Source: Monosiga brevicollis MX1 (taxonomy: Eukaryota > Opisthokonta > Choanoflagellata > Craspedida > Salpingoecidae). Taken from it: a stretch of DNA of 64,000 nt. The translations under genes and the position numbers were made by a program. The notes under the pieces are model-generated. The model was not told where the DNA came from, made no database searches, and was given only the letters and a program-made list of their open reading frames with translations. Shown in pieces: positions 14,701 through 50,740 of the stretch (the first letter of the stretch is position 1; each line of letters starts with the position of its first letter). The stretch is from assembly GCF_000002865.3 (NCBI RefSeq), contig NW_001865072.1:44435-108434 (forward strand), given 5' to 3'.

Positions 14701-17700
14701 TCAGATCGCAGAAGACCGCATGCTTGCTGGCTTGAATGACGCCACACCTGTTTCTTCGAAAGCAGCGGCCTATGCTTTGGCGATGCGACTGTTTTGGGGT
14801 CGAAGTGAAGGCTACAGCAGAAGCGCTTCTAGGGCATCTGTTTGCAGAGTTTTTCAAAAGGTCGCGCAGAATCGCTACCATCGTCACTTTTTCAGGCATT
14901 TTTTGCGCACGTTAGGCTTCAACGCCCAAGCGTTTGACGTAGATTCGAGCTCCAAGTCTGCAGCACTGCAGATTGCCACACACCTGGCGTCGACGTTGAT
15001 AGACTTGGAAGATCCCTTTCCGGTCTGTGCTGCCACTTTGCGAGAGCTTGTGGCTTTTGTTGAAGGTCATGGCATGCTATCAAGCGATGAGATCAAGCGT
15101 CTCAAGAATTTGCGCAACGAGCCTGTAGATGAGCCAAAAGTACCGCCTTTAGAATATACCACGCCAGCGTGTGAAAGCGAAATTGCCAAGCTCTTGGAGC
15201 ACCGCCACTTGTGTTCACGCCAAGCTGATGGCTTGGCCTCTGAGCCACACCAGGGAGTCGCATCGCGGAAAGCCAATCCATTAAATGTTATACCTTGGTC
15301 AGACGGTGGTGCTTTTGACAGCCCGTCGCGCAAGTTTGGATCTCTTCCAGGCGACAACGGCCGACAGGGCTTGATCAGTTTCTCACTTCAAAGTCAGGAG
15401 GGAGTTGTCGTTCGCGCGCCAGCATTATTTCGGATGCAACAAATATTCGCTTCCAAAGATGATCCCAACAAGGCATGTTCTGTGCTTGGCATTGAAATTT
15501 TACAAGGCCCCGGCGGCGTTCTCGTTGCACAAGATGTGACGGTTGGCGGCTTATTGGTGGCGTCCAGCACCCTTGTTTTTCTCGACAAGCGTCACCTCAA
15601 CGCCAAGGAAGGAATCCCTTCCGGATATAAGCCTGTCCAAGCTTTTCCTTCACATGCTGCAGCCTTTTCGTTCTTCATTGAGGACGCCCCCGCTAGCACG
15701 CTTCTCGTGGGTGAGAATGTGATGTTGAAGCGAGTAAGCGGTGGCAATTGGCATCCAGTTTTTACCCACAACTCTCGCGACTCCTTGCCTGCCGCTCTCA
15801 AGCCAAGCTTATCAGCACCGACGAGGCGACTGCTCAATGATTTCGGGCTAGCCCAAGAGTTTGTTGAGTTTGTTGCACAATTAGTGGAGCTGAGCCGTTC
15901 TCTTCCAGGACAGGATGCCGAAACGCGACACCAGATTGCAGATGCACTTCAAAAGTGCGAAGACACAGGATCAATCGCGCCATTGGAGCAATTGACAAAA
16001 AGGCATTTCTCTGGCGAAAACGACGGTCTGCAAAGGCTCCTTCAGCAGAATCTGAGGCATCAAAAAACTTGTTTTGAAGTTTTGATGACCCCTGGGTTAC
16101 ATGACAACTTTGACATAATCAACTTTTTGCTTCGTGGATTGCCATCTTTGCCCGAGCGAAACGAAGGCCAATTTGCATTCATGCCAGCAAAGCCCGAGGA
16201 TATTGTTGAAAAGTCCGAGGATGCTGTTAATCAAGACGATTATTTGTTGTTCGATTTGCCATCCAACAGCTCGCGTGCTTCTTCAGCTGCAGCTGTCGGG
16301 TCTGAGGAGTTCGTCTACGTCTCAAGCGACTCTGAGGATGTGGAGGAGTCTCGCGCCAGCAGCGCTTTGAGCCTTTTTGATGCTGACGAAGAAGCTTTTA
16401 CGCGCAATACGAGCGTCAATTCTATGGAAGAGCCGTGGCCAGCAAGATCCGTGTGGCAGGTGTATCCACACCAGCGCCTGTCTGCAGAGTTTGAGCGTGC
16501 CAGTGACAGCCTTCAAGGGAATTTTTTCGGGTTTATCGTGGATAGCCCGATGAATTACACGAGCCATGACATGAACTGGATTGTGCAATGTGCTCGAGCC
16601 CCCCTTGCCCCAAACTTGCGAGACTGGATCTTGAAGACGTTTTTGGATCAATCTTTTCTTCAGTGCGCTCCTGAGTTGCAGACAAATGCAAGGATCAGTG
16701 AACACATTGTTGCCTATAGCTTAGCAGAGCGGTGCCCGATTCCCAATGTGGCTAAACGCTTGATGGCTGCCTTTGCCCTGCCACACCCCCTCAACAAGTA
16801 TTTTGGGCACGTCTCGGGCGAGTTTGGCATCTATATTTGTGACCCGCCCGTGTATCAACAGCTGCACAACGTGCTGCACATTCCCATGCGCACTGTGGAT
16901 GTGGAAGTTTTGCGAACGCGTGGCGTGATTGGTGAAGATCAGCTACTTTTGGAGATTCTTGGTCAATTCAAAGACAACATCACTCTGGTGTATGTTCGAG
17001 GCATGGACACCATTCCAGATCTACTCCTCAAGTGGTGTGCCGAGTATACCAAAAGCGTGGCCTACCATTACATTTACCTCGAATCCACAAATACAACCAA
17101 GAACTTTGTAGAGAATCGAGATCGCTGCAACACATCCTTGTATCATCCACCTTCATTGCAAGAACTAGAGCTTGCTGCAATTTCACAGCCCGGCATGACC
17201 TCACCGCAAGGCGCTACCAACATTGCTTTGGCCACTTTTGCTCCTCAGTTGGATATTTCTTTCTCCGATGCCAGCTCCCTGGAGAGCCATCACGCTTGTG
17301 ACTTTCAAAAGATGCCCAACACGACATTGAAAGGCAGCTGGAAGCGGAAAATGCTGACATGGCTTGGCTTGAGCAAGGCACAGACTGCAGAGGAAAGTCA
17401 GGCAGTGAGCAGCGGTCAGCTTTCTGCTTTTGTTGTGTTTTCGCCGCCTGGAGCAGGCAAAACTCATTTTTTGGACAAGGTCGTGCGGCCACAATGGGAG
17501 ACAGTGGCGCGGCGAGAAGTCAGAGATTTTGACTGCAGCTCAAAGCAGCTTGTGGAAGAATCTTTGGCATCCGTGCTCTCCAGCCGTTGCTCGGGCGCTG
17601 CCAAAGAGTTGCTTGTCGTGGCGGATGAATTTCATATGCTAAATAAAGCCCAAAAGCTTGAGCTCTTTGCAACACTTGCCGAGAGGGCATTGAGTCAGCC

Positions 17701-20700
17701 ATTGCGAGTTATCTTGATTGGAAATCGTCGGGAAAAGGACGACGACGATTTATTGGCTGCGTGGAAGGCTATGCCTGCAAGTGGCAACATTCAAGACGTG
17801 TCAGCGCGGCTTACGGTCGTAGAGCTCCATGCAAGAATCGTCCAACTCGGTCTGAATGAGAACAAACTCCTTTGCTGGTATGCCTGTTGTCGGGCCCTTT
17901 TTTCTGACCATGTGTTGACCCTGCGCAATGTTGAGGCAGCCGTCAAATGCAGAGCCGAGCCTGCCAAATTGGCGCATTTGCTGTTTTCAAAAATGCCCTC
18001 GCTTGGCCAGTTGGCCTCTCGTTGCATCACTGAAGCCATTTTTAGCTATGTGGAGCAGTTTGCTCTGGGATGGAAGAAGGAAGATCGGGACACACCAGCT
18101 TCCGTTGGACTCCTTCGACTACTCCAAGAAAGAGATGATGATCCTTTGCGTCTGCTGGCCAGAGTGGGCCTTGCATCTGCCTCGTTTACCAGCCAAGCTA
18201 GGGCTCATGCACGTGTCGAGAACACAGAGGTTGCAAACAGCATTCTCAACAGCGATGGGAGCGTGGAAATGCTTGAATCAGACGAAACAGTCTTGATGTC
18301 CTATCCCGAATTTGCTGATGCTTTCCCAGGAAGCCACAAAATGCATCCTGTGCTTCGACTGCGAACGTGGATTGGATACATTCAATACAGATTGAGCGAA
18401 GAACTTGAGACAAAGATTGAGCTGGACTGTACGTCGCTAAGGCGCTTGGTGTTGATTGATCAGCCGGGATTCCCACTTATCACAGGCGTGCTTGCCATGC
18501 AAGGGCAGCCCAATTTGAGTGAGTGTCGAGCCTGGAGTGAGACTGGTGACTATACAGACTTGGAATGGATTCGCGTCTCCCTGCAGCGAAATTTGGCTAT
18601 CGACTGGCAGCGTGCGCGTGACATTTGGAGCACGTACTTTGTGACTGATTGTGTGGCTTTTCTCAACTTGCTGGACGAGGCTCCAAATAAGGCAGTTGTG
18701 CTCTCGGCCGTGGCTCCCATGAACCTTGCCGCGCTACTCCTGTCGTCTCGCCATGCCAAGCATGGACAGCAGCTCGCTGACCTGGTAGTTACCATGATGT
18801 GCAAAGATGAGTCTGCTGAACACACACAAGGAAACCTAGGGGATTGTCTCGATCCTCTTTTCCTCTCCCAATGGCTCACGTTTACTTTGCGAACACCAAA
18901 CCTTTTGACAAAGTTGGTTCCCCAGCAGCGCCGTCGGTTGTTGATGTGGGCAGCGCAGCATCTAACCAAGGACCTCAGCAGCACTTTAAATTCCGAATGT
19001 AACGCTGCCTTGCTTGCGGCTCTCGAAGAAGAAACATTTCAACTGATGGAACAAGCTGATTTTGACGCTGTGCGTCTGTTGTGGTCAAATCACTTTGCAT
19101 CTCACTTTCCAATACGCACATTCACTGCCGTGCAAAGTTGCGACGCACATTTTGTGGTTGCCGACCAGCCGTCAGCACACAGTGCTTGGCCCGAGGAGCT
19201 CGGCTGTCTCCATCGCATTCTTCATGGACAGGTTGAGCTGCAGGATCTCAACCTTTTGGCTAGCTGCTTAGCAAGCCAAGAAAACACAACGATAGCCGGG
19301 TTTCCGCACGAATCGAGCCTACACCGGCGCTTTGTTCAAAGCTTGGTGAGTGAAACTGTCGTTGATCCTCTGCCAGCAGCATGGCAACGAGCACTCGTTG
19401 CTCAGGTCGCCGAGCCATGGATGAGAGACGAGGACCTTGCAAAAGTCTTACGAGACAAGGAATACGTCACATGCAAACTGTTGGCCGGTTTCTTAACAGT
19501 ACAGCGCGCAGCTGACATCTTTCCCAAATGGGACCGCAGGCTGAAGTCGTGCGCTGTCGTCAGAGAACACTTTGTTCAACTATTTGGTGTGGATGACCTT
19601 CTAGAACGCCAAGGGCATTTGAAGACACTTCACGAGCAGGCAGTGCGGTCTGAAGAACAACGCCAGAAGGAGAAAATGAAACACATTCGACGCGTCTTAC
19701 CGCACGTGGCCGAGCGACCGCAGATCTTGCGCTTCTTTACGGACCAAGTTGGTCGGACGGCCCTAGCTCAGCTTTTGCACCAAGGCAAAGCCGAAGAATT
19801 TGACGAATTTCGCAATCCGCGCACAAGCAATTTTGACTTGGCGCGTGATGGGGCCTTCAATCAGCAGAAGATTTTGATTGGCAATTTTTTTCGTGATTGC
19901 TTGCACCAAGCCAATGTCAAAATTCCGAGCGGGACTCAAGATCGTGTGAGGGCGCTCTTAAAAAACGGCGGCTTTGACGATGACGAGTTTAGTGTTGGAT
20001 CTGATTTTGTTCGAATCATTACGCCATATCAATCACTCTCCCGAGTGGAACAAGACGCACGACTCCAGCGATTGCTTGCCGTGCTCCAGCAAGGCCAGAT
20101 CCCGTCGAGCGTGACGTCAGTTAAAGAGATTGCTTTCAAATTCGAAGGTTTCTCTCAAAACCAGCTGCGAGACAACATTGCAGATCGTTTGCACCAAAAA
20201 GGATTTCAATTGCAGATTGAACGCGATGAGGAAGAGTTTTCATGCCTACTCTTGACGGGCAACTATTCAGTTGCGTGGGTCATTTCTGGCAGCTCCTATG
20301 TCATGACAAAGCGAGGCAAAGCGTCGACTCGACGCAGTCTTCGACGATTAGCACAAGCATGTGCAACCTTTCACGCTGCTGGAGGAGGTTTGTTTATCTT
20401 TGGTGACAATGACCCATATGTCCTGCATGCCAATGCAGTGCTGGCAGCCGTGGACGTTGGCTGCAGGCTTGACGGCAATGTAGACGGTAACAACTTTGTT
20501 TTGCACAAGGCCAACACCAATCCGCCCGCAACAGTGGAAAGCAAACGGTCAGGCGGCTGCATCAACAACGAAGACCACCCAATCATGACCGGCATTGCTA
20601 CTCTGTTTGAAGGCATTACCATTTGTGTACCGGACCCCTCAGACAAGTTCGAAGAATTCTTTGATGTTCTTGCTGTGGGCGGGTACAAGCATGACTCAAC

Positions 20701-20986
20701 GGAACGCCCAGTGCCCCTGATTTTGGCCAGCAAGGATGCGCGTCGTGCTGCTTCACGGGGACGCATTGTGGTCGATGGAGGATTTACTAAATTGTGGTCC
20801 AACTGGAAGGTGGGCGGAACAGATCGCTATGTTACCAATGCAACGGCCTGGCTCACGGCCGTTGACCAGGAGTTGGCCATCAGCCCCAAGCAGGAAGGCA
20901 TTTTCTCCATACCTCGCAAAAGGGTTGGTGCTGAAGTCGCTCTCCCCCCCTCATTTGAGGGCTGGCTTCAACTAAATTGTCCGTGA
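8771..20986 (+). CDS. Giant P-loop ATPase with C-terminal amidotransferase-like region, 4019 aa
   Basis: Exons are 8771-8844, 8923-9072 and 9151-20986 (11.8 kb without an intron); both introns are 78 nt, and the total is 4020 codons including the stop. The first intron is open in frame, so retention would add 26 residues. A Walker A motif (SPPGAGKTH, residues about 2839-2847) and a Walker B-like LLVVADEF (about 2895) define one nucleotide-binding module of AAA/STAND type. Residues about 2418-2505 are acidic and Ser-rich, likely a disordered hinge. The last 240 residues (about 3770-4010) contain AGGGLFIFGDNDPY and RGRIVVDGGFTKLW, which recall class I glutamine-amidotransferase-like folds; that is inference from memory. 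The remainder is long helical sequence of unknown type. No signal peptide or membrane segment is evident, so a cytosolic location is likely. An AATAAA lies 42 nt after the stop. Confidence 0.8.
17320..18060 (+). other. P-loop NTPase module inside the 4019-aa protein
   Basis: This is the codon range of the only clear nucleotide-binding site in the giant protein. GAGKT follows a hydrophobic strand (FVVFSPP). About 55 residues later LLVVADEF gives a hydrophobic strand ending in Asp-Glu, as in Walker B. A further hydrophobic strand, RVILIGNRR, could carry a sensor-type residue (Asn). Helical sequence with Leu/Ala repeats follows, as in AAA lids or STAND winged-helix regions. The subclass is undetermined. 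Confidence 0.6.
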
Positions 20987-21838: not shown

Positions 21839-24364
21839 TTAGCCGGTGACTAGGGTGGTGTTGGTGGAGATGGCGTTGACGTCAAAGACAATGGCGTTGA
21901 CGTCCACGTCGTTGTTGACGATGATGAGGTCGCCGGTGACGCTGAGGAGGCTGCCGAGCGCATCCACGTTGGTCAGTGTGGGATTGTTGTAAACCACGAG
22001 CTGGCCCGCTGTCTCCAGGCTCTCGAGGCCATCCAAAGTGGTCATGTATTCGTTGCTGTCAATCTCCAGGCTGTCAATGTGCGTGACTGCACCAAAGAGC
22101 GACATGTCAGAAAAGAGCGTATCAAAGATGCTCACATAGCCCAGTCCCGCCGGGATCTGGCCCTGGTAATTGGTGGACTCGTCAAAGTAGAGAGCGGCTG
22201 CGTATGTCACCGTGTCCAAAAGTCCAGAGCTGAAGCCATCGCCACAATATTCGAGAAGGACTAGAGGGCTGTAGAGGTGGGTGACGCCAGCAAGCATCGC
22301 CTTGACGTCAGTGGCGGTCGACACGTTGCAGATCAAGTCATCGCCGTCGTAGCCGGTGCACATGTAGTCTGTGTAGCCTGGGTTACAGGCGCAAGACAGG
22401 CTACCAGCCGGCACCGTGCCAAAACCGCCACAACTAGACCACGGCACGCTGACGCTGGCGCCGTCAGCAATCTCGACCGTCTCCACCAAATGCGACCAAA
22501 GAGCTTCGCAGTCTGCGCACGCATCGATGCTCAGAGCTGGGGCAAAGTTTTGACCGAGCAGAAGCACCGGCTCGGCGCCGTTGAGGGCTGAAAAGTTGGT
22601 CAAAAGATCCGATGAGGCGATGGCGAGCGAACCAATGCGCGCCACATTATCAAGGCCGGCGAATGAGGTCAGCACAGGACACACGATGATCTCGAGCGCC
22701 CCGTCGATGGTGGTCAGCGCGGCAAGTCCCGAGAAATTGGTGAGCTGGTCATTGTTCTGGATGCTCAGCGAGCCCACCGTCTCAAGCTTGGGCAGCCAAT
22801 CGATGCTGGTTGCAGGTACAGACTCAATGTGCACAGTTGAGACAGACTTCAAACTTGGAAAGCCTGGCTCGACAATGGGCATGCCGAAAGAGTTGACGAA
22901 CAGGCTGCCTTCGATGCTGGTGAGGTAGGGCAGGTGAAGGTAGGATGTCTCGAGGCACGTGTCAGTCAGGTGAATGTCGCCAATCACGTGGCGCACGTTG
23001 GCTAGGGTCTGGTTGAGGGTCTCGGCTTGGGCAAAGTCCGTGCAGAAAAAGTCACCGGTGATGGTGTCGCACAGCTCGCCCGAGTACTCGGGCGAGGCGC
23101 AGGTACACTGGGTCTCGGGAAAGCCCGAATGATAGCCGTTCTGGCATACGAGCTGAAATTCAACAGAGGTGCCGACCGTGCCGGTGCGCTCGATAATGGT
23201 GGGGTTGAAGGCCAGCACGTTGCGGAGGTCCTCGTTGTCCATAATTTCGACAAAGCCCAGAGTGACGGTTTGAACGCCGGCAAAGTCGTCAAGAGTCTCA
23301 AAGCCAGTCCCGCGAAGGAACAGACCGTGCTCGCCGATGGAGGACAGGTGAGGCATGCCCAGACCCTTGAGAGCCGGACTGCCACGGATGTAAAGTCCAC
23401 CAAGGTGCTCCACGAGCACATCGTTGAGGTAGCGGGCCGGGAGGTCGAGCAAAAAGGCGCCGGGCATGGTGCGCAGGTGGGAGAAGAGAGTAATGTCATC
23501 GCATCCTTCAAAGCATTCGTAGAGGCTGCGCCCAAAAGACACTAGCATCATCGAGATCCGAGGGGCGGTGGAGCGATTGACAAAGTCCTCCACGTAGTTG
23601 GGTGTAAGAAAGTTTTGCACCTTGCTCAGTGGGCATGAGCCGATCGAGGTGAGTTCGGAAAAGACGGTGCGGCCAACGAGCTGGATTCGGGGGATGTAGG
23701 CCATGGCCACGCAGCCCGTGACAGTCTGCCAATGGTTCTCGGGCCAGTCTCCAGTAAATTGCTCAAGATACTCTTGGTCGTAGATAAAGGCGCTGCCATC
23801 GATCGTGGTAAGTTGGTTGGCTGCAATGATGGCCTCGGCCACGATGCAGTAGCGCTTCATGATGAGATCGCCCCGAAGCGTGGTGACACCTTCAAGGGCT
23901 GCAACAAAGAGAGGCACATCGCTCGTTTGTGAACACTCAATGTCGCCCACGTAGATGCTACATGGAACAGAGATGGGGATGAGTGTGCGCAAGTGTGGGG
24001 AAAGCAGCGCCGGGGCTAGGCAGTAGGCGCAACATATTGTGGGGCACTTACTCGCAGGCCGGGCCCTCATAGCCGCTGTCGCAAAGGCAGGTTTTGGTTT
24101 TCGTGACATTGTCAATGACGCTAACCCCGTGGGTCGTACACCGGGGCAGCAAATAGTCCTTGACGGCTTCCAGAACTACAGTTTCATGGCCGTTATCCGG
24201 CACACCAATGAGGATGGAAAGCTAGCCAGGCGGCCTCGTGATTGAGAGCCAGGGGTACCAGGTGTTTGAAAGCGGCTCGTACCGTCATTGTCAAAAGACT
24301 GAGAGGCTATGGTGGGGACGGTGAGCAGCGCCGCGAGGGCGACAATGGCGATGTGGCGCAGCAT
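21839..24364 (-). CDS. Secreted receptor-L-domain / EGF-like protein, 774 aa
   Basis: Exons are 24364-24283, 24175-24052 and 23957-21839; the spliced total is 775 codons including the stop. The start MLRHIAIVALAALL opens a clear signal peptide ending near TIAS. After splicing, an EGF-like end (CLCDSGYEGPAC) precedes the first of three related units. Each unit begins with GD.xC and a run of about 200 residues with repeated hydrophobic turns and NNxxLTNxxAL phrases, typical of receptor L domains (the leucine-rich beta-helix of EGFR and insulin receptors). EGF-like CTCASPEYSGELC and CSCNPGYTDYMC separate the units. No transmembrane segment or kinase follows: the frame ends in TNTTLVTG, so the product is probably secreted or peripheral. 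Ligand binding or cell adhesion is a reasonable inference. Confidence 0.82.
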
Positions 24365-26148: not shown

Positions 26149-29100
26149 CTAAGCAAAGGTCATGGCTGATCCGTCACTATCGGGAGCATCACTGAGAATT
26201 TGAACAATTGTATCGACCGGTTTGCTGGGTGCTTGATCTTGGAGATGGTTGTTGTGCTGTTCAGACCCGGAGGGTTGGGTGTTGTTTGCACGAGTATTGC
26301 CGGCCATCTCCACCGAATCGCTGAGAAGCGACGATTTGCTCTGGCTGATCTCAGCCATTGAGCTTAGACTGACGGGGACGGTATCCGAGTGCTCAAATAC
26401 CACGCCATTGTGAGGCAGCGACAAGCGATTTGCTTGGTCTGTCCGAGGTGAGCTAGGATGACCGCCGGCGCTGTGCTCGTGTGGGTGCCGAGGATTCAAC
26501 GAGACGCGGGGGCTACGTGCACTTTGGTTTGAGACTGTGCTAAACCGCGCTTTTCGCGGCATCTTGACAGTTGCTTCCACGTCATCCATCCCCGGAGCAT
26601 GGCCCAGCCAGTAGGTTTGCATTTTGCCCAATCCTTTGATGTTCACAACTGGATCGCGCTGAATCACGTGGAGGGATTGGTCGTGCTTCTGCACCAATGC
26701 CGCGGCCTCTGGGGACATGTGAATGCAGTTCCGCACGCTGTTGCTCTCCATTCGTGATGCACAGTTGACCGTCGATCCAAACAAACAGAATCGTGGCGTC
26801 AAGGTCCCCACCACATTTGATACAACCGGTCCGCTGTGAAAACCGACGCGAATGTTAATGTGATCACCCTCGGGCTCGTCCTCAATGATGGGGATTGCAT
26901 TTGCTCCCGCCAGGGCATCCATAGCAAACCGAGCCACGCGAGCTGCATGATCTGGTTGGGGTACAAACAAATTGCCCACGCACATGTATGCGTCACCAAT
27001 GGTCTCGATCTTGTACAGGCCGTGCTTATCGCAGAGTTGGTCGAATACTGTGTACAGTCGATCCAGCATATTGGAAACCTGAACTGGCTCTAGCGTGGCA
27101 CTCATGTCCGTAAAACCGCAAATGTCCGAAAAGAAAATGGTCACCTCTGCATGATGCTCCGGCTCTATACCATGTCCCCAATCAACGGATTTCGACCAGA
27201 AAAACAAGTGGCGGTGAGCAGAAATGAGAAAGGGCCACGCTTCATGCATTACCTGGAAGACCATGGTCACTGCTGCAACAACTTTGCGAACGACGTACCA
27301 ACAGTTCGGCCCTCGCGCAGTGCAGCTGCGATGTGCTTTGGAAAGACCTGCTCTAGCAGCTCATTGTCTTGAATGCCGCCCTTGCGTGAGTTGGCCCGCA
27401 TCTTCCCCTCCAGGGGTTCAATCCGTCGCAACAGCTCGACAAACGTCGGGCGCATGTCGGGATCGGCTGCAAATGCCTCCTACGGGATACCAGATGAAAG
27501 ATGTGACATAATGCCAGGCGGCCAAATAAAGAAAACAGGAGAAAGAAATAAAGAAGCAAGAGCAAGTGTGCAGAGATAGTATTCAGGGCACATATTTGCA
27601 TTGAACGGACATTCATGAGGACGGCGAGCTCAGGTGGCATGTTTTCGGGTGTAACAGGACGCAGCTTGCGACCGAGAATGTTCTGAACCAGTGTGTTTGA
27701 ATCAAAGCTCATATCCTCGTAAGGGTCCTCGCGTGAAAAGACCTCAAACATGACCATGCCAAAGCTATACACGTCGCTGGCAAATGTACACGGACCGCCG
27801 CGCAGCAGTTCTGGGAAGATGAGGCACGGAGAAAGAAAAAAAGGCCCGGTGATGAAGGCGGAAAAAATATACATATACAAGAACCACTGGTCGGCCAAAG
27901 CACGAGGCAAAGAGCACAGACCAGGCGCCATCCAGGCCAAAGTGCCGCCCCGTTGGCTGTGTTCCGAGGCAAAGCCTGCCATCCCAAAATCCGACACCTT
28001 GACTTGGAACTTGCTATCAACCAGGCAGTTCTAAGAACACCCGCAGAGAGCAAAGCACGGTTAAGCGCATTGCTGTGCATTGAAGAGCTCGGTGTGGAGA
28101 CATAAAACGAGCACATACCAGAGCCTTCAGATCACCGTGGATCAGATCTGCGTTGTGCAAGTGTCGCATGCCGCAGGTTATGTTGTGCAAGCTGTTGTAA
28201 CGAAACTCATCATCCAGTTCCATTGCTTCGTTGTGCAGCATGTTGTAAAGCGACCCCATTTGCATGTACTCTCTTGGAAGCACCCAGCCGTGTTGAACAG
28301 GGCAGGCGGATGAGAAGAAAACGAGACCGCCTCGTTGAACGATGGTTTTGCAGAAAAACTTACAACACCATGAGTGGCTCCATACCCGACTCCACAACAG
28401 CACCCACCATGCGACAAATGTTGTCATGCTGCATGCGGCTCAACAGGCGCATTTCACGGAAGAGCTGACGGCGCGCGCGTGTTTCTGCTGACGGGCCAAA
28501 GAGTCTACTCCAACAAGGAACATACGTATCATGGATGGTTCGACTTGGCTTGGAGCTTGATGCGTTGTTTGCGGATGCTTTGTTCACAGCTGCTTCGGCC
28601 TCGATAAAAAAGGTGCGCATGCGATTGCGGGCCGTATGATCCGTGCGCTTTGTTGTGGTTTTGCGGCTCGAGAGCGAGAAGTTTAAACTCGAGGACGCGA
28701 CAGCGACGTCACGCCCGCTTGCCACCCTGCTCTGGCTGTGTTGTTTGCGATGCTTGTTGACGTAGGCGCGCTTGACTGCCACAGCTTGCCCACGGAGCTT
28801 GGCGGCCAGTACGACGCCAAATGAGCCAGAACCTAAAACTTCAGGTGGCTGATCCAAGACGAGATCCTTGGCGTCGATTTGCCAAATACCATCCGTTTTC
28901 AGGCGTTGTCGATGGTTGTTATAGAGGATCAGCGAGGCAATGACGATAATCACGGGTACCAGCACTTGTACAATCAGGATGCCAAAGGGTACGCAGGTGC
29001 CAGCCGATGTGACGTAGCCTGAGTCACACTCACAATTGCCGTCGCTGTATGTCTCGTGCGCAGCACAAACGGAAACGCAGGGGTAGCAGACACATTGATA

Positions 29101-30901
29101 TTGCACGGTCTCACTCGTTGGGCATGGGTATTGATGGTGGGTGTCACACGAAAAGTCGTCGCGCAGCCGAAAGCCGTAGGGGCATGACATGTGTTCCAAA
29201 TCAGCGTCCATGTTGCCACATGTCAGCGTTTTGTCTGCGTTTGTGGTTAAAAACGAGAGCTCGCGCTATATGCACACCAAAAACGAAATAAGCAAACCAG
29301 CGCGTGGAACCAAGAATGAAGCATCTACGGGCGCAAGGAACAGTTTGTTTGGTTGGGAAGACGAAGAACCAACCAGCAAGGCAAAAACCCTCACGGTGGA
29401 GAGAGGGGAGCGCCAGTAGCTAATGGAAGAGGCGCCAGCCTTTTCAAAGTCCGAGTGGTTAAACCCAAACAGAGCCGAAACGGGTCCATGTGTTTCCTAG
29501 TGAAACAGCCTTCCTGTGAGGTTGTCCCTCGCTTTGGCTCCACGGTTGGCCAGAGACGTACCTCCTCACTCAGCCCGGTGATCGAAGACAAAACCCAATC
29601 TGCGGTCAAGGGATTCAAGTACGGACGACAGGTCGCAATGGCACCTTGAGATAGGATAGAGCTGGATTGGGGCATTTGGTTCTTTGAAGGCGGCCCATCG
29701 CTGCTGCAATCCAGTTTTGGCTTACCACTATACAAATTGGTTGAAGAACGAAAGGGATAGGCCTCGCCCAAGGCGTTGAAGTGGTTGTATTCGTTGAGAA
29801 ATTTTATGTTGGAAACAAACACAAGGCCCAGATCCATCATTTCTGAAGCAAGAAACGGCACGACGAAACATGCATGAGTGGCATGTTGTCACACACGATC
29901 TGAAGGCAACGAGCAAACCACTCTGACCGAACACGGCAGTAGCTACCTTCAATAATGCCGGTCTGAACAAAACCAACGTCTGCCAAGCCGTTGACAACGT
30001 CCAAGACCACCTGGTACTGATCTGCTGTGAAAATGATCTGACGAAAATCGGACAAGCATCACAAGCATCATGAGCTGATGATGTAGTAAAGCAACAACAC
30101 AGTCTTTGTGCCCGGCTGTGGCCATTCCTATGTCTGTCTGTCCATTGATTTGTCCATCTGGCACAAACCTGGGGGTTGGCGGTTAAAATCTCGATGCCAT
30201 GACGCAAGATTTCATGACGCTGTGCCGCATACCCAAAGAGGGAGTCACGCCCCACCGCTGAGATCACTTTGCCTTCGATATCAGCGAGGGAAGCTATATC
30301 GCTGCGATCGTGCTTTGTAAAAATTACGCCTCCCGCTTGCGACACGTCAACAGCTGCATCAGGGGGTGGGAAATCGAAAACAAAATTCAAGGCCATGAGT
30401 TCAGGATGTAAGGGTCAGGCAAACGCGTGAAGCAAGCTCTGAGGGGCGCGGCTCAACAAAACCCACTTTTGTGGTGGCGGACGATGGATGAGATGGGGGC
30501 AGCGCTCGTCTCCGCCGATAAGCAAGCAAAGATGTGGCTCGGTGTAAAGGCAAGATTGATCATGCCGAGACGAGCGTACTCGCGAATCTCTGACGTGGTT
30601 CCGGTCACATACACGGCTTCAACGCCAAGCAGAGACATTGAAGCATTGATGTCTCGCATTGCCCGATCATACAAGGCTATTTGCACGGCCAAAAGAGTAG
30701 ATATTAGACAGATGGCAGACTCTTTCGATCCACAAACGCGACGAGATCGATTCGGCACAATTCAGGCGTGCTACTGGCAGGAGCTGAGCTGCACGTACAG
30801 TTGTTGATGAGGCCTACGCGAGGCATGACGAGCGAGGCCTCGGCTGGCACCACCAACAGGCTGGCAGCCAACGCCACGGCGAGAGTGATCCAAACTCCCA
30901 T
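26149..30901 (-). CDS. Receptor kinase/guanylyl cyclase with one PBP-like ectodomain, 1135 aa
   Basis: Thirteen exons: 30901-30799, 30676-30467, 30353-30169, 30037-29947, 29842-29726, 29599-29562, 29496-29395, 29265-28364, 28272-28119, 28030-27922, 27810-27611, 27479-27299 and 27164-26149, totalling 1136 codons with consistent phases. Order: signal peptide (1-24), periplasmic-binding-protein type 2-like domain (about 35-285, PhnD-like phrases GYAAQRHEILRHGIE and VVNGLADVGFVQ), Cys-rich EGF-like stalk (298-372), transmembrane helix (376-399), kinase (about 414-755: GSGSFG, VAVK, HGDLK, DFG, APE), coupling helix, class III cyclase (803-995), Ser-rich tail. Cyclase metal sites FSD and IGD, guanine-type KIETIGD and FCLFG, and the Asn/Arg of VNCASRM are present, so GTP is the predicted substrate. 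Likely a plasma-membrane sensor making cGMP. Confidence 0.85.
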
Positions 30902-42398: not shown

Positions 42399-45300
42399 AT
42401 GGTGGCGGCGTCTCAGCGACTTCCAGCCCTGCTGGCCCTGCTGTTGGTGGCAGCACCCCTGGTTGCCAACGCTCTCAACGTGGCCTCACTCACCATCTCC
42501 AGTAAGTCTTGCTGCCACAAGCTGACCTTGGCAACTTAGTGATCAGTCCTTGATTCGACTCATCACCCCTTTCCCCTGGCAGCCGCCTATGACCGAAAGC
42601 TTGCCACTACTATGGCCTACGTCGCTCAACAGGTACGTTTCTCCGCGCTCTGGAAACGCTTCATCAACGACCTTGGCAACCACGAAACGTGAAAGCGAAA
42701 TTTGGCAACCATCCCAATCATATCGTTCTGGCACCCCGCCCGGCCTTGTGTATTGTCTTGGTTAACCTTGACAACGCTTGCACGGGGAATTGTTCACTTC
42801 TGTAGCTCAACATCAATGTGACCATCACCAAGTTGTCCGTGAGCCAAATGCACCAAGCCGCTGACCAGCTCGCTGTGAATGGCATTCTCTTTGACATGAT
42901 GGTCGTCGATCCAGCCGTCTATGCTTGTTTGTCGACTGACAACGACGTTTATGCCATTGCCTCCTTTGACATGCCAGGTATGCTGGCGATAGCCATTCTT
43001 GTGCACCATCCATCCCATCAGTTCTTCTCTCGTCACACTGAGCTCACTCACATTTGTTCGTCTGCTAGACGTGGCCGGCCTTATCGTCAGCACCAAGCCC
43101 ATGACCTCGGCCAACCTGACTGCCAGCGCCGGTCTTCGCGTTGGTGGTGCATCGGTATGCTTTTAATTGTCATGCCTTTGCAATCACTCGTTTGTCAAAT
43201 CGTCTTACATACATTTTGACGCGCACGACTGATGTAGCCCTTCACCTTGGGAGGTGGCCTGGCTCATGCCCTGACCCTCAACGAGCTCGGCTTCAACGTT
43301 TTCCAAGACAGCAAGCAAGTCATCTTCTCGCAAGAGGACAGCAAGACGCTGCGTTTTCTCGACGATGGTTGGATCGATTTGGCCTTCATCTCGCGCGCCA
43401 CGTGGCAAGGCCTTTCTCCCGCTCAACAGACCAACTACTTTCTCTTCAACTCGCAAGCCACTGGCTCGCTGGCCAGCCGCATCTCGACTGATCTGTACCC
43501 CACCTGGGTGCTGGCTGCCATCGGCACACCCACGGATGAAGCCGATGAGGTGGCGACTCTCCTGTTGTCCATCGATCCCCTCAACAACCCAGCTGAGAGC
43601 TCACTCCAAGACTTTCGAAGTGCCGACTCCTTTGCCAATCTGCACATGACACTGCGTCGTGTGGGCATTGTTGACATTGACGAGACTACCAAACTTGAGT
43701 ACTGCGTGCCCATGACCACCCCCCGTCAAGGTCTCTTCTGCCCTAGCGACATGTCGCTGCGCTCTTCCGAAGATGCCGTTGATGTTGCTTGCACCAACCT
43801 GGTTTGCCCTGCCGGTGCCTCGTGCATTTGCAAGCCTTGCACGGATCGGGATAACTTTGCCGTTTCCGTCAATGGCCACGAGTGCGACCGTTACCACACT
43901 TGCGCCATGGTCCGTCAGCTCGATCACATCACGTTGGTGCTGGATGATCGCAACTCGCGCCTGGTGGCCTCACCTCAAGTCAGCATCTACGTCATTCCAT
44001 TCAACACGACGTCGGCCGATTTCCTTTACAATGCCCCGATGACCTACAGCCAATCGGGCCATGTCCACTCGTACGTCATTGAGCTCAAACGTGCCGGTAC
44101 CATCTTGATTGTGCTGGAATCAGGCATCACTGAGAAAGTGGAGTCTAGTCCGGTCATCGTCACCGTACACGAGCGCCTTTGTGACTCTGAGTTTGCCACG
44201 CCTGGCCTGAACGGCGAGTGCCTATGCTTGCCGCCCATGGAGCTCAACGGCCTCGGCGAATGTGCCCCTGATGGCCAACATCCCACACCCAAGCCCGTCT
44301 ATCGTTTTGCCTACTACGAGCCCAGTGGTTTGTTTTGCATATCACTCGAGGCAACCTGTTCATGTAAGTTTCATAGTGCTTACCTCTGCTTTGCGTACTG
44401 CATCTTTCGATGACCCGTAGATAAACAGGCAGCAATCACCCGCTTCACGCCGACCATTGAATACCTGAATCGGATCATGCCACCTCGGTTTGAGATGCCA
44501 GTATGTTTACATTTGCGCACAGAGGCTAGCCCCTTTGCCTTTACTTGCTCACGCCGCTTCGCTCGTTGGATGGACCCCGTAGATCAAACTCCAGTTGGTT
44601 GCCATGACGGCCGATGAGCTTCATCAAGCCATCGAAGACGAAACTGTGGACTTTGTTTTCACCGAGCCCGCTCAATTCACATGCTATGAGGTTCAGCACG
44701 GCCTCGTGCCACTTGTGACTATGCAGCGCGAAGTTCCCAGTACGTAGGCGCTACAAGAGAGTGCTCCCACAGGTCCTTGTGTACAAGCTGGTCAAAAACT
44801 GACGTATTTGTTTCCATCTGTGCTAGCTCCCGATGGCGACACTGATATTCAGGAGTTGGCCGGTGCCATTGTCGTTCGCACCAACGAGGCCCACATGTAT
44901 CAAAACTACTCCAATTTGGTCGGCAAAGCCGTGGCCATGGCTGGCTTTATCGACCTTGCTGGTGGCATGGCCCAGTGGTGGCAGCTTCGCGAAAACGGTG
45001 TTGAGCTGCTAACTGACGTGGCTCAAGTTGTCATCTCGCGCTCGGACGAAGCCAGCCTGCAACTGCTTCTCTCCAACCAAGTGGACGCCGCTTTTGTCAC
45101 CGATGGCTTTTTGCAACGCAAGTATGACGCCAACGAAACCCAGCGGTCAAGGGTCTCCGTCTTTCGCCCTCTGAGCGGTCTTGTGGCAGGCCATCAGCCT
45201 TACCCACGCGAAAGCTCGACACCCGTGTTTCCCGAGTGGATTGTCGCCGCCATCCACAACGTTGATGCAGATGTACGTGTATTCCTTTCGCTGTGCTTGT

Positions 45301-46267
45301 GCAAAAGCGCCATCGCGAGCATGACTCGCAACCTGTTTCTCTTATTCTTCTTTGTCACTCTTGCAACCTCTCCCACAGGTGGCCAAAGAGGTGGCACAGA
45401 TCTTGCTGGACCAGATGCATTACGAAGATTCAGCCATCGTCGGTCAACTGGAAGGTTGGCAACCGGGGATGTCGTACGAACCTGTGCGTGAGGTGCTGGT
45501 AAGTAACCACTCTCATTTTACTTCTCGAACATTTGTACTTTCCTTGTTGATGATTGGACACGCACGCGCGCTTACCACCCCGCTTGACATGACATAGTAT
45601 CACCTTGGCTACATCTTCATGAACACGTCAACGCATGATTTCGTCTGCCCCCGCGTTGGCGACCCTTACGAGGACATCCATTGTCCCACCGGTACCTACA
45701 AGCGAGCTGCCAGTCAAATGCAAGCAGATTGTATTTTCCGGTGCCCAACCGGCATGTCATGCTACTGCAAGCCTTGCGCGGTCGCCGATGCTCAAGAGGT
45801 ACGCTTCAAAGCTCGTGGGCGTGCCAAAAGACAATTCGCTTGTTTTTCATCGGGTGCTGCACTGAAAAATACCAGGTCTCTCCTGTCAGGGTCTACACCG
45901 CTGACGGGCGCCGGTTGACGACGGCTGAGTTGGAAGCGCTTGATCTCCACGACACCTGCACCGAGATGGACGTGTGCGCGAGTGTGGAGCAGCAAGGGTA
46001 TATCCAATTCCAAATCGAGGATCATTTTTATGCCAAGGATGGCCTTGTGACAATCCGAGCTACGGTGCACGACACTTTGGCAGGTGACACGGAAGACACG
46101 AACCGTTTCAGTGTGGGTGTTCATCAAGGCAACGGCTTTTACCTCATTAACATTTCAGCTCATTATGTCGGTGCCCAACTGGTCGAGGTAAGTGCCACTG
46201 TTGCAGCATTCATTTTGGGTCTCTGCTCAAGCTCACAAAGTGTGCGTTGTTTTCCTTTTTTTTTTTT

Positions 46268-46328
<61 letters not shown>

Positions 46329-49300
46329 GTTGTTGTTTCCCAATAGATAGCTCGCAACGGTGTCGATCTGGCTCAATCTCCGTTCCTGATCTCTGTCAAG
46401 CGGCGCACCTGCTTGGAGGATCTGCGCGAGGCAGATGACGAGGGCGAATGCGTGTGCAGCAGCATTGCAGATGATGTTAACGGAACTTGCGTCCTCAAGG
46501 GCATTTTTCAGTCGACGCGCACCGAATTCGTCATCGGGGCCACCTCCATCACGGACAAAGCTGGTGTGCAGACCTTGTACGCCCCCAGGGTTGCTTACCT
46601 CAACGAAGTTGGCACCAAGTATGCGCCTCCTTTAACCTTCACGGTTGACTTCATCTGGGTGGATCCCGCCATCTTCACTTGCTTTGAAGTCCAATACGAC
46701 TACAAGCCGCTCTTGACTCTAAAGACCGAGCATCTCGGTCAAGGATATGACCATTTTGCTGGACAGATTATTGTGCGCGCAAATGACATGAGTATTACGT
46801 CGGTTTACAACTTGACCGACAAGATTGTTGCTGCCGAGTCTTTGATGGTTTTGGGCAGCGGCCAATCGCAATGGACCATGCTAATGAACTCCGGGTTTGA
46901 GCTTATGTCTTCCACCAGAGAAATCATTATCACTGGCAATGAGATGGACACCATTACGTACGTTTTGCAGGGTTTTGCCGATGCTGGCTTTGTACGTTCC
47001 TTGACCTTAGCCAAGCTGGATCAACTTGGTGATGTGGATGCTTCCCTCTTCCGGGTCTTGTCAGCCCCACTGGAATCGGACAGGCCTTCGGCTGAGTATC
47101 CCGTTCCGGTGTCAACTCGTCTTTACCCCGAGTGGCTTTTGGCCACAGCCCCCGGGATCGACGAAAATCTGCGCAACGAACTTGTGTTGGCCTTGTTGGA
47201 TCTTGAACCCACTTCGCTGGAGGCACGGAGCGGCTTGTACCACTCTTTTGAGATGGCTCAGTCATACTCGCCCGTGCGTGATGTCATGCGTGACCTGGGT
47301 TACATTGTTCGCAACAACGATGGTACCTACTCGTGCCCTGACCGCACAACAACCTTTCAAACCATTCGCTGTACCGATGGATTTTATCGTAAGACCAGCG
47401 CGGAGATTGACACGGGCTGCGCCCAAGCTGGCATCTCTTGTCCGGCCGGCAAAACTTGTGTCTGCAAGCCTTGCCGAAAGGCCGACCCCGTGGAGATTAT
47501 TCCGATCATTGCAGACACAGAGGAGGGTGAAGTCAAAGACATTGAGCTCGACTCGGCGTCTCGCATCAATTGCGAACGCATGACAACGTGCATCACGGCC
47601 GTGCAGCGTCAGCCCATTGGCTTCCATGTGTACGACAATCTCTATGCCGAGCGCGGCGACGTTGCTGTAACTTATATTTTGCACGACCGGAGATCAACTG
47701 AGGAAGCTGATACCTTTGGAGATAGCTCGCTTGCTAGCGTTTCCGCTGACATCCGTGAGCCCGGCCATTACTTCTTTCAGCTGAGCTCTGCTGCTCGCGG
47801 TTCGCACGTGATGGAGGTCTTCATTAATGGTGAGCAAGCACCCAATAGTCCGCTCATTCTGGCGATTGGCGAGCGCACCTGTACGGCCACTAACACGGAA
47901 GCTGATGAAACTGGTCTGTGTGTGTGTACGAGCACCTCAACCAGTGTTGGTGGCAGCTGTTTTGACACCAACTACCTGATCATCTCCATCGCTGTTCCCG
48001 TGGCTTTGCTGCTCGTGATCTTGATTACGGCCTTTGTTCGTTACCAGCAAAAGAAGGCAGATGCCCTCTGGACCATCGACCGCAGCGAGTTGTTCTTTGA
48101 TGACCCTCCAGAAGTCCTGGGTCGTGGTACCTTTGGTCTTGTGCTCAAGGGCACCTACCGTGGATCTGCCGTTGCCGTCAAGCGCACCATGCCCGCCAAT
48201 TTCTTTGCTGGAGATGCCGATTCCCTCTTTGCGCGCTCCTCTCGTACATCGGCTGCCACGCGCACCATGATGGGCTCGCGCAGCGCCAGCGCCAATACGC
48301 TGGGATCGATGCGTAGCGATGACCCCTTGAAGAGCCGTGCCAGCAATGCTTTCAGCAAGTCACTCCTGAATCGTATCAACAGTGACAACGAGGAGGACAC
48401 AGACGCCAAGTCTAAGCGCACGCAAGGCAGCATGGCCGGCATGGGTCAAGGGGGACTGATGACACGTATGGGTGCGGGCATCTTGGGCAAGACCTTTGGT
48501 GTGCAGCGCCGCCGAGCTGCCATGCGTAAGGAGTTTATCACGGAAATGCGTCTGCTGTCGAAGCTGCGTCACCCCAACATTGTGACGGTCATGGGTGCCG
48601 TTACCGAGAAGGGCCAGGAACCACTGCTGATTCTGGAACATATGGAGCACGGTTCACTGTACAGTTTGCTACGCAATCCCCAGATGGAGCTGGATGCCGA
48701 GTTGACACTGCCCATTGTTAAGGACATTGTCAGCGGTATGCTGTTTCTGCACACGTCGCGTGAGCCGATTGTGCACTGTGACCTCAAGGCCATGAACGTG
48801 CTGTGCGACTCCAACCTCCGAGCCAAGATTTCCGACTTTGGTCTGACAGCCAAGACACAATGTGGTGGTATTGGTACACCCTACTGGATGGCCCCCGAGC
48901 TGCTTCGCGGTGAAGTTTGCACCACGGCTAGTGATGTGTATGCCTTTGGTGTGACTGTATGGGAAACAGTGGCTCGCACCGACCCCTATGACGGCTTGGA
49001 TATGATCCCGACGCTTCGCGAGATTGCTCATCCCCACAAGTCCAAGAAGCCGCTCCGCCCCACCATCCCCAAGGATTGCTCGCAAGACTTGTCCGAGCTC
49101 ATGCAATCATGCTGGAAAGAGAATCCTCTTCAACGCCCAACCTTTGAGGAGATTGACACGAAGCTGCGTTCGTTGCAGGTCCGCAACGTGGGCATGAACA
49201 TGATGCAGGCACACATTGACAAGAAGCGCCAAGGCAATGTGTTGCAAGATGTCTTCCCGCCTCACATTGCCGCAGCCCTGGCTGAGGGTCGCCGCGTCGA

Positions 49301-50740
49301 GCCTGAGCACCATGAATGGTTGGTTTCCCGACCCGTATTCTGCATTTTTTTTATTTTTTTTTTTATTTTTTTATTTTATTTTTTTTTTTGTTGTTGTGTA
49401 TGCTCTGCTTTCAGGGTATGAGTTTGGCTCGTTGCTCATTTCCTTCCTCGTCATGTTTGCAGTGTGACCATCTTCTTCAGCGACATTGTGGGCTTTACGG
49501 ACATCTCGGGCTCACTGGCACCGGAGAAGGTGTCTGACATGCTGGACCGTCTCTACACACAGTACGTCGCGTCGCGTCGCCTCTTTGTGCCTTTGGACAG
49601 GGACAATGCGCCTGCTTTGTTTAGCTTTTTGGTTTTCAACTCACACCTTGGTCGGCATGGCCTTCTTGACATTTCAGGTTTGATTCGTTGTGCGAGATGC
49701 ACGACATTTTCAAGGTGGAAACAATCGGTATGTGTGGACTTTGTTTGCCTGATCTCATCGATCGATCAAATGGCTTGAGAACAGCGGCAAGTCGCCCTCA
49801 CAGCGTCTTGTTGTTCTCGCATGGTGCAGGTGACGCCTTTATGTGCTGCTCCAATTTGGTCAAGACACAGGATGATCACGCTGCTCGTCTGGCTCGGTTT
49901 GCCTTGGACGCCATTGAGGCAGCGGCCGCTACGATGATTGATGAGGATGATCCTGATCGCGGAACCATCAAGATTCGCGTTGGCCTGCATTCCGGACCGG
50001 TCGTGGCCAACGTTGTTGGCTCGCGCAATCCTCGGTTCTGCTTGTTCGGCGACACGGTCAACGTGGCCTCTCGCAGTACGTCTTGATTGTGTTGCGCATC
50101 ACGCATCGCGTATCGTGCGTGCTTTTTTTAAGCTTGCTCGTGCTAACAAAATTGTCTTGATTTGTGTGACGTAGTGGAGAGCAACTCCGAGAAGGGACGC
50201 GTGCACTTGTCCAAGCCAGCTGCAGACCTGGTCAAGGAGCAGGATGCCAACTTGAATCTGGTGTCGCGCGGCAAGGTCACCATCAAGGGCAAGGGGCAGA
50301 TGCATACCTACTGGCTATTGCCGGATGGCGTCACTCTGGAGGAGGAGACCCGCATCAAGCGCACTGTTTCCTTTGTGGATGAGGTGGCCGATGCGGTTGC
50401 CGTGGACATGGACGCCATTAGCGTGATCGATGAGGCCAGTCGCCGTGCTTCCGAAGCCAGCCGTCGGGCCTCCGAGGCCAGTCGCCGTGCTTCCGAAGTG
50501 CCAGGAGGCCCTGGAGGCCCGCGCCGTGGATCGGGCTACGTGTTTTACAGCGAAGACGATTACACGACGCCTACAGGTCCTGGTTCCCCAAAGGCACCTT
50601 CGACGGCAAGCTCGGCCATCAACTCGGCCACGGGTAGCGTCTCGGTGCACATGGGCGACGACAACTTTGGCGGGGCCAGCAACGCAAGCCTGCTAACGGA
50701 GATTGCCGGAGAAAACAACGGCACGAGCAGCCATGTCTAA
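42399..50740 (+). CDS. Receptor kinase/guanylyl cyclase with three PBP-like modules, 2261 aa
   Basis: Sixteen exons: 42399-42501, 42583-42632, 42806-42977, 43069-43154, 43238-44363, 44421-44500, 44583-44739, 44827-45272, 45379-45498, 45598-45798, 45876-46187, 46347-49318, 49463-49561, 49678-49727, 49830-50075 and 50175-50740, totalling 2262 codons in consistent phase. The ATG has a full Kozak context (GCCACCATGG). Order: signal peptide; three modules (about 30-510, 513-1000, 1005-1470), each a PBP2-like domain, a Cys-rich segment (CKPC motif) and a filamin-like domain (SPFLISV, SPLILAI); transmembrane helix (about 1493-1516); kinase (about 1523-1893: GRGTFG, VAVK, HCDLKAMN, DFG, APE); coupling helix; class III cyclase (about 1940-2130: FSD, KVETIGD, FCLFG, NVASRM). 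The tail has three EASRRAS repeats. Predicted role: membrane sensor producing cGMP, with possible kinase activity. Confidence 0.88.
46258..46327 (+). repeat. Poly(T) tract of about 65 nt in intron 11 of the large receptor
   Basis: An almost pure T run, broken by one CCC, lies about 20 nt upstream of the acceptor CAATAG at 46346. It lengthens the polypyrimidine tract. It creates spurious poly-Phe and poly-Lys frames. Confidence 0.9.
50432..50494 (+). repeat. Three in-frame EASRRAS heptad repeats in the cyclase C-tail
   Basis: Three 21-nt repeats encode EASRRAS. Synonymous codon differences (AGT CGC CGT against AGC CGT CGG) in the middle copy show they are not a fresh slippage product. RRAS matches the R-R-x-S consensus of cAMP- and cGMP-dependent protein kinases, so these are candidate feedback phosphorylation sites. 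Confidence 0.85.

Follow-up and report, generated by a model that had tools for sequence, protein, structure and literature searches.

A three-module receptor cyclase gene

The stretch analysed here, which we call the window, comprises 64,000 nucleotides of the Monosiga brevicollis MX1 genome (assembly GCF_000002865.3, contig NW_001865072.1, positions 44,435 to 108,434 of the forward strand). It contains a gene, here called gene A (42399..50740, + strand; all features of gene A are on this strand and are given in window coordinates), of 16 exons and 2249 amino acids (aa), whose product reads as a type-I receptor with three modules, a transmembrane (TM) helix, a kinase, and a guanylyl cyclase. 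Each module consists of a periplasmic-binding protein (PBP) domain, a cysteine-rich part, and a filamin-like part. The gene starts with an ATG at 42399 and stops at 50740, with no in-frame stop between, and all of its introns are GT-AG. The original prediction for this locus, made from the letters alone, had placed three such tandem modules in one receptor cyclase, and this description held: the modules are related and lie in one spliced gene. The limits that it gave, 42399..48045, contain the correct start and the receptor ectodomain with the TM helix, which reach to about 48032, but the gene continues with the kinase and then the cyclase to its stop; the ectodomain, put at residues 1-1490, has a computed extent of aa 1-1480.

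The gene model was built by hand with GT-AG introns only and was then refined by a dynamic-programming run with splice weights learned from gene A and from its paralogue, gene B. In this run, 14 of the 16 exons were identical to the hand-built model, and two module 2 borders were shifted. The shifted borders also agree better with the alignment of the modules and yield a protein of 2249 residues. The BLASTP E-values between modules, the percent identities, the full-length Pfam scan, the alignment that delimits the cysteine-rich parts, and the phmmer search with module 3 given below are from the model before this shift.

Hydropathy revealed two hydrophobic stretches only, at aa 1-25 and at about aa 1480-1500. 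The former is a predicted signal peptide (42399..42473), called from the hydrophobic N-terminus by hydropathy; the latter is the single TM helix (aa 1481-1501; 47970..48032). There is thus no internal signal peptide or TM segment between the modules. This bears on whether the model merges separate neighbouring genes, as do two exons. Exon 5 (43238-44327) begins midway in the module 1 PBP and continues across the cysteine-rich and filamin-like parts into the first strand of module 2. Exon 12 (46347..49318), which is open over 2972 bases, starts in the last strands of the second filamin-like part and takes in module 3, the TM helix, and the kinase. Both module junctions lie in stop-free exons, so that a split gene would need a start or an end inside exon 5 or exon 12, and on this ground we rejected a gene-fusion artefact. 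The modules are 22-30% identical and therefore too divergent for a duplication made in assembly. Taken together, a merger of neighbouring genes is extremely improbable.

PBP and cysteine-rich parts of the modules

The PBP domains of module 1 (aa 26-292; 42474..43702) and module 2 (aa 489-784; 44291..45645) are split by introns; that of module 3 (aa 991-1268; 46500..47333) has none. Their matches to PF12974 have E-values of 5.4e-8, 4.3e-25, and 2.7e-17, respectively, and when the modules were scanned singly, all three scored over the 27-bit cut-off (32.9, 88.9, and 63.4 bits). TtrS was the best NCBIfam match for each module scanned singly, with E-values of 1.8e-4 for module 1 and 1.2e-17 for module 2; the scores of modules 1 to 3 (20.1, 63.7, and 48.1 bits) fall short of the 750-bit cut-off of this equivalog (NF040750). 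By profile, then, modules 1 and 2 are PBP domains. The Pfam scan of the gene A protein returned no match to HisKA or HATPase. The cysteine-rich parts were delimited by alignment (module 1, aa 293-352, 43703..43882; module 2, aa 785-862, 45646..45956; module 3, aa 1269-1347, 47334..47570), and each module has 14 cysteines.

Alignment of the three modules, a check proposed in the original prediction, showed them to be related. BLASTP gave 95.9 bits for modules 1 and 2, 100 for modules 1 and 3, and 224 for modules 2 and 3 (E-values 2e-25, 4e-27, and 7e-71), compared with at most 25 bits in 50 shuffles of each pair. The beta2-alpha2 stretch of modules 1 and 2 is missing from module 3, a loss of about 16-20 residues in lobe 1. 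The structure prediction that had also been proposed succeeded in part: module 3 was modelled as a PBP and matches ArrX, HtxB, and PtxB, whereas the model of exon 5, which holds only half of the module 1 PBP, has low confidence (mean predicted local distance difference test score, pLDDT, 51.9). A phmmer search of the Protein Data Bank (PDB) with module 3 alone gave no match at E-values up to 1.

The motif STS...H makes the oxyanion contacts in PtxB, according to passages of PMC5700983. At these positions, module 1 reads TLG/D, module 2 DLA/D, and module 3 VLG/E, so the motif of PtxB and PhnD function is absent from all three. Among 41 rows of prokaryotic sensors, the same positions are mostly AFG, 36 of the rows having F and G at two of the places and 10 having H. 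The inference from the family name of PF12974 to phosphonate sensing was rejected on this comparison. Since the modules differ from one another at the contact positions, different ligands are allowed, though not thereby demonstrated, and the multi-ligand or cooperative sensing put forward in the original prediction stays conjectural.

Filamin-like parts

The filamin-like parts of gene A comprise aa 353-452 in module 1 (43883..44182), aa 863-961 in module 2 (45957..46412), and aa 1348-1451 in module 3 (47571..47882). The strand sets SPFLISV and SPLILAI, named in the original prediction, were found at aa 950 and aa 1440; a third, SPVIVTV at aa 441 in module 1, had gone unlisted. Scanned alone, module 3 matches Pfam Filamin with an E-value of 0.088 (14.1 bits, under the PF00630 cut-off of 26.9 bits), modules 1 and 2 have no match, and the best paralogue domain (in C33) reaches 20 bits. 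A whole-genome search with PF00630 found one place, on C38, and none in gene A or its receptor paralogues. All three parts are rows of profile A8, built from six domains, which matches solved filamin repeats (filamin-A, E-values 3.2e-10 and 5.2e-8), mainly over the C-terminal strands. The earlier filamin-like call is thus borne out by the profile match to filamin-A, but each domain alone stays under the Pfam cut-off. In the structure model of module 3, the cysteine-rich and filamin-like part has a pLDDT below 70, so the fold rests on the profile match, and filamin-like immunoglobulin (Ig) domains in gene A are supported as a profile only.

Kinase and cyclase domains

The protein kinase domain of gene A (aa 1520-1884; 48087..49181) matches PF07714 with an E-value of 3.2e-52. 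Its best PDB match is CTR1 (E-value 1.7e-42), with EGFR, TAK1, and others lower. The domain retains the glycine loop, VAVK, HCDLKAMN, DFG, and APE. The guanylyl cyclase domain (aa 1931-2115; 49464..50335) matches PF00211 with an E-value of 1.6e-59, and the motifs ETIGD and CLFGDTVN are of the guanylyl cyclase type. With one TM helix, a kinase-like domain, and a class III guanylyl cyclase, gene A is a receptor guanylyl cyclase in the broad sense.

The C-terminal tail of gene A contains three tandem SRRASEA-like units (window 50438-50497). RRAS resembles the consensus for kinases that depend on cyclic AMP or cyclic GMP (cGMP), and these repeats are a possible feedback site.

A family of PBP receptor cyclases in the genome

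A syntaxin fragment of the assembly is identical to chain B of PDB entry 2xhe, the M. brevicollis syntaxin, in 65 of 67 aligned residues, and the two exceptions are at the exon edge. In the assembly, 34 matches to PF00211 were found; grouped by location, they represent 20 cyclase loci. At least 13 of these 20 carry a PBP of the PF12974 type: gene A, gene B, C13, six loci on C44, C49, C33, C27, and C55. These counts are lower bounds, as only the best-scoring candidates were considered. Apart from gene B, the paralogue models are single automatic predictions, with missing or doubtful exons in C44_1, C44_3, C44_5, C44_6, C49, and C13. In our models, the triple module occurs only in gene A, and the other 12 members have one module each. 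The filamin-like part is found in five of the 13 members (A, C49, C33, C27, and, by eye, C55).

Gene B lies in the same window (26149..30901, - strand) and has 13 exons and 1150 aa, with one PBP and cysteine-rich module, a TM helix, a kinase, and a guanylyl cyclase. On C44, at about 932-968 kb, six one-module receptor cyclases (L041, L042, L046, L018, L006, and L012) stand in tandem, roughly 6 kb apart, and form the largest cluster of the family; four of their PBPs were found with PF12974 and two by BLAST to a neighbour. The PBP of C49 scored 25.5 bits, marginally under the PF12974 cut-off, and that of C55, near 1.14 Mb, has an E-value of 1.9e-7.

The HxD-K-N motif and DFG are present in 11 of the 12 gene models read for them; the exception is C49, which has DFS and an HxD that is interrupted in the model. 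By these residues, most members could be double enzymes, with both kinase and cyclase activity. The thirteenth member, C55 (L145 with L019, about 1.138-1.142 Mb), looks decayed: it has HGHLTSKN instead of the HxD motif, and its cyclase reads VDVIGD and LLGDTMN, which are not the residues of guanylyl cyclases.

The remaining seven cyclase loci were classified by eye as four soluble guanylyl cyclases, two soluble adenylyl cyclases, and one animal-like receptor cyclase. The last, on C35 (L146 with L029, 62.5-72.1 kb), has EGF-like matches and a kinase that reads HGKLCSRN, with no catalytic Asp; the spliced gene has a weak match to ANF_receptor (E-value 1.4e-4; 21.5 bits, under the cut-off of 25.4). 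A whole-genome search for ANF_receptor found two places, neither of them at a cyclase locus. Elsewhere, PF12974 matches an open frame on C34 (L045, 117-124 kb); the 7 kb read there, 1398 bases of which are N, held nothing that matched the kinase or cyclase of the receptors.

Prokaryotic relatives, phylogenies, and introns

We searched plasmids and prokaryote genomes for relatives of the PBP domains. With the C13 PBP as query, the plasmid collection yielded 20 records (11 from Sulfitobacter and 9 from Azospirillum), and all three of the proteins scanned are sensor kinases composed of PBP, HisKA, and HATPase_c. Scanning the prokaryote genomes with these three plasmid sensors confirmed 129 places, from which 80 loci were kept. 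All 39 of the open reading frames scanned from these loci contain PF12974; HisKA and HATPase_c were found in 24 each and GerE in eight, in a set that its query skews toward sensor kinases. In the phylogeny of the PBPs, which left out C33, C27, and C55, the 12 choanoflagellate PBPs are separated from the 41 prokaryotic rows by a branch with 98/94 support. A term search of the main text of two choanoflagellate gene-transfer surveys (PMC4046809, PMC7971027) found neither "cyclase" nor "phosphonate".

Intron positions were compared across 11 modules from nine genes (C44_1, C44_3, C44_5, and C55 were left out). Introns are shared in column and phase at columns 18-20 (phase 1, nine of the 11 modules), 105 (phase 1, eight of 11), 286 (phase 0, six of 11), 337 (phase 0, eight of 11), and 417 (phase 0, two of 11). 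Module 2 of gene A has all five but not columns 187, 217, and 271, which are common to most B-type genes. Module 1 has the first shared intron and two others near those of module 2, and module 3 has none. The shared columns and phases indicate that the modules of gene A came from an intron-bearing ancestor. The intron-free stretch from module 3 to the kinase may perhaps have arisen via a complementary DNA copy.

Comparison with known receptors

The animal receptor guanylyl cyclases, such as NPR-A (ANP receptor 1), resemble gene A in the single TM helix, the kinase-like domain, the linker, and the guanylyl cyclase, and among PDB entries the gene A cyclase matches ANP receptor 1 best (E-value 2.8e-50). 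In contrast, the ectodomain of gene A is a type-II PBP (PF12974) in three copies, and ANF_receptor (PF01094) is absent from its Pfam list up to an E-value of 1, from which most matches above 0.1 had been filtered out. The kinase domains differ as well: that of animal receptor cyclases is apparently inactive or a pseudokinase, according to passages of PMC1592074 and PMC10400071, whereas that of gene A keeps VAVK, the HxD of HCDLKAMN, and DFG. The sensor histidine kinases of the TtrS/ThsS type share with gene A a PBP sensor outside the membrane and, by eye, a W..P..Y..V tail behind the PBP; the output of gene A is instead a eukaryotic kinase and cyclase, and its modules are tripled with filamin-like parts between them. 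The genomic paralogues have the same order of PBP, cysteine-rich part, TM helix, kinase, and cyclase as gene A and differ in having one module each.

In the receptor adenylate cyclases of trypanosomes, the TM helix is followed by the cyclase, and they are not known to have a kinase; gene A has one. Passages of PMC6027212 describe these receptors as having more than one Venus flytrap (VFT) domain outside the membrane and one TM helix, as in gene A; most have two VFT domains, and their product is that of an adenylate cyclase. On this likeness, drawn from the description, the two-VFT trypanosome cyclases are the nearest precedent for a cyclase with several PBP domains. Cyclases that carry several binding-protein domains thus have a precedent. 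As for the claim that no receptor of the triple-module architecture had been described, none appeared among the full-text matches listed, a set outside the subscription literature.

Venus kinase receptors are not known to have a cyclase. Gene A has both PF12974 and a cyclase, and its kinase has CTR1 as best PDB match. Venus kinase receptors resemble gene A in pairing a binding-protein domain with a kinase. Passages of PMC4026697 describe their kinase as active and as a tyrosine kinase close to insulin receptors, and their VFT as like that of class C G protein-coupled receptors, which sets them apart from gene A; the passages also report VKR-like receptor tyrosine kinases in M. brevicollis.

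Origin and possible function of the receptor

The architecture of gene A, the homology of its modules, its catalytic residues, and its membership in a family are established at the level of sequence. In our view, with a probability of roughly 0.6, gene A is best explained as a single-pass PBP receptor cyclase in which ligand-driven closure of at least one PBP leads to cGMP output. The product would be a cell-surface receptor, probably dimeric, whose ectodomain presents three type-II periplasmic-binding domains resembling the TtrS sensor, each followed by a segment rich in disulfides and then by a filamin-like Ig domain. One or more of the PBP clefts would close on small molecules or anions that come from bacteria or the surrounding water, the cysteine-rich and filamin-like parts would relay this change to the TM helices of the dimer, and the receptor would then make cGMP. 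The kinase might phosphorylate the receptor and its partners, or it might modulate the cyclase. A receptor with three inputs and two outputs, in which the three PBPs, differing in their pockets, each detect other dissolved compounds and drive both an active kinase and cGMP synthesis, is an unlikely extension of this scheme; if true, it would constitute a class of eukaryotic receptors derived from a two-component sensor domain and separate from the animal ANF-type cyclases.

Several observations weigh against a ligand-gated receptor cyclase whose PBPs derive from prokaryotic sensors. The PBP of gene B favours the transporter family TIGR01098 (E-value 0.0018), and TtrS reaches only 0.21. Module 1 and C49 are on very long branches in the PBP phylogeny, and its prokaryotic rows were picked by likeness to the Sulfitobacter sensors. 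In the phylogeny of the modules, none of 200 bootstrap trees (0%) unites the three from gene A, and module 2 pairs with C49 (98/97). This separation counts against duplication within gene A, an argument weakened by the very long branches, of which the tool warns; the triple ectodomain could stem either from intragenic duplication or from the joining of paralogous modules. The model for half of module 1 is poor. The complete PtxB motif is found in none of the 14 choanoflagellate rows (two partly gapped), and its loss, together with the missing beta-alpha unit in module 3, may mean that one or more modules do not bind a ligand.

An alternative proposal is that a single module senses, for example module 2 as the highest-scoring one, and that the rest serve as a stalk to raise the sensor or to aid dimerisation. 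The residues gone from lobe 1 of module 3, the profile scores of module 1, which are the lowest, and the single module of the other 12 members seen all agree with it, and we consider it somewhat unlikely but a reasonable alternative. The incomplete contact motif would fit PBP modules that have come to recognise proteins or surface polymers on prey or partner bacteria in place of small molecules, and M. brevicollis reportedly avoids one bacterium in a selective manner, presumably via surface chemistry (passages of PMC10770216). However, the motif is also altered in the 41 prokaryotic sensor rows, and C44_1 retains its S and H, so its loss says little; the solved relatives of the PBP fold bind small solutes; and small anions are the signals of PF12974 sensor kinases, those for thiosulfate and tetrathionate being described in passages of PMC5408782. 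We therefore regard recognition of proteins or surface polymers as quite unlikely. With regard to origin, the PBP domain probably descends from a prokaryotic sensor protein and has multiplied to give at least 13 receptor cyclases. PBP-II receptor cyclases might instead have arisen early in eukaryotes and disappeared from other lineages, without any late prokaryotic transfer. Deep divergence and many introns, some at positions common to several members, mean that the family is not recent; the relatives found, however, are prokaryotic, in searches that covered plasmids and prokaryote genomes only, and purely vertical descent appears improbable to us.

Gene A places, in a sister lineage of animals, a prokaryotic-type sensor domain on a kinase-cyclase output that animals join to a different binding-protein fold, and its kinase is apparently intact. 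Two questions thereby become testable in an organism that can be cultured: whether receptor cyclases once had a working kinase, and how choanoflagellates use cGMP in sensing solutes from bacteria or the environment. The triple ectodomain is a natural test of multi-domain cooperativity.

Other open frames in the window

Two very long stop-free frames are present in the window, one of 3926 aa at 9206-20986 (+ strand) and one of 1878 aa at 2195-7831 (- strand); neither has a Pfam match at an E-value of 0.001. Another open frame, at 21839-24115 (- strand), matches the Receptor L domain with an E-value of 2.1e-8.

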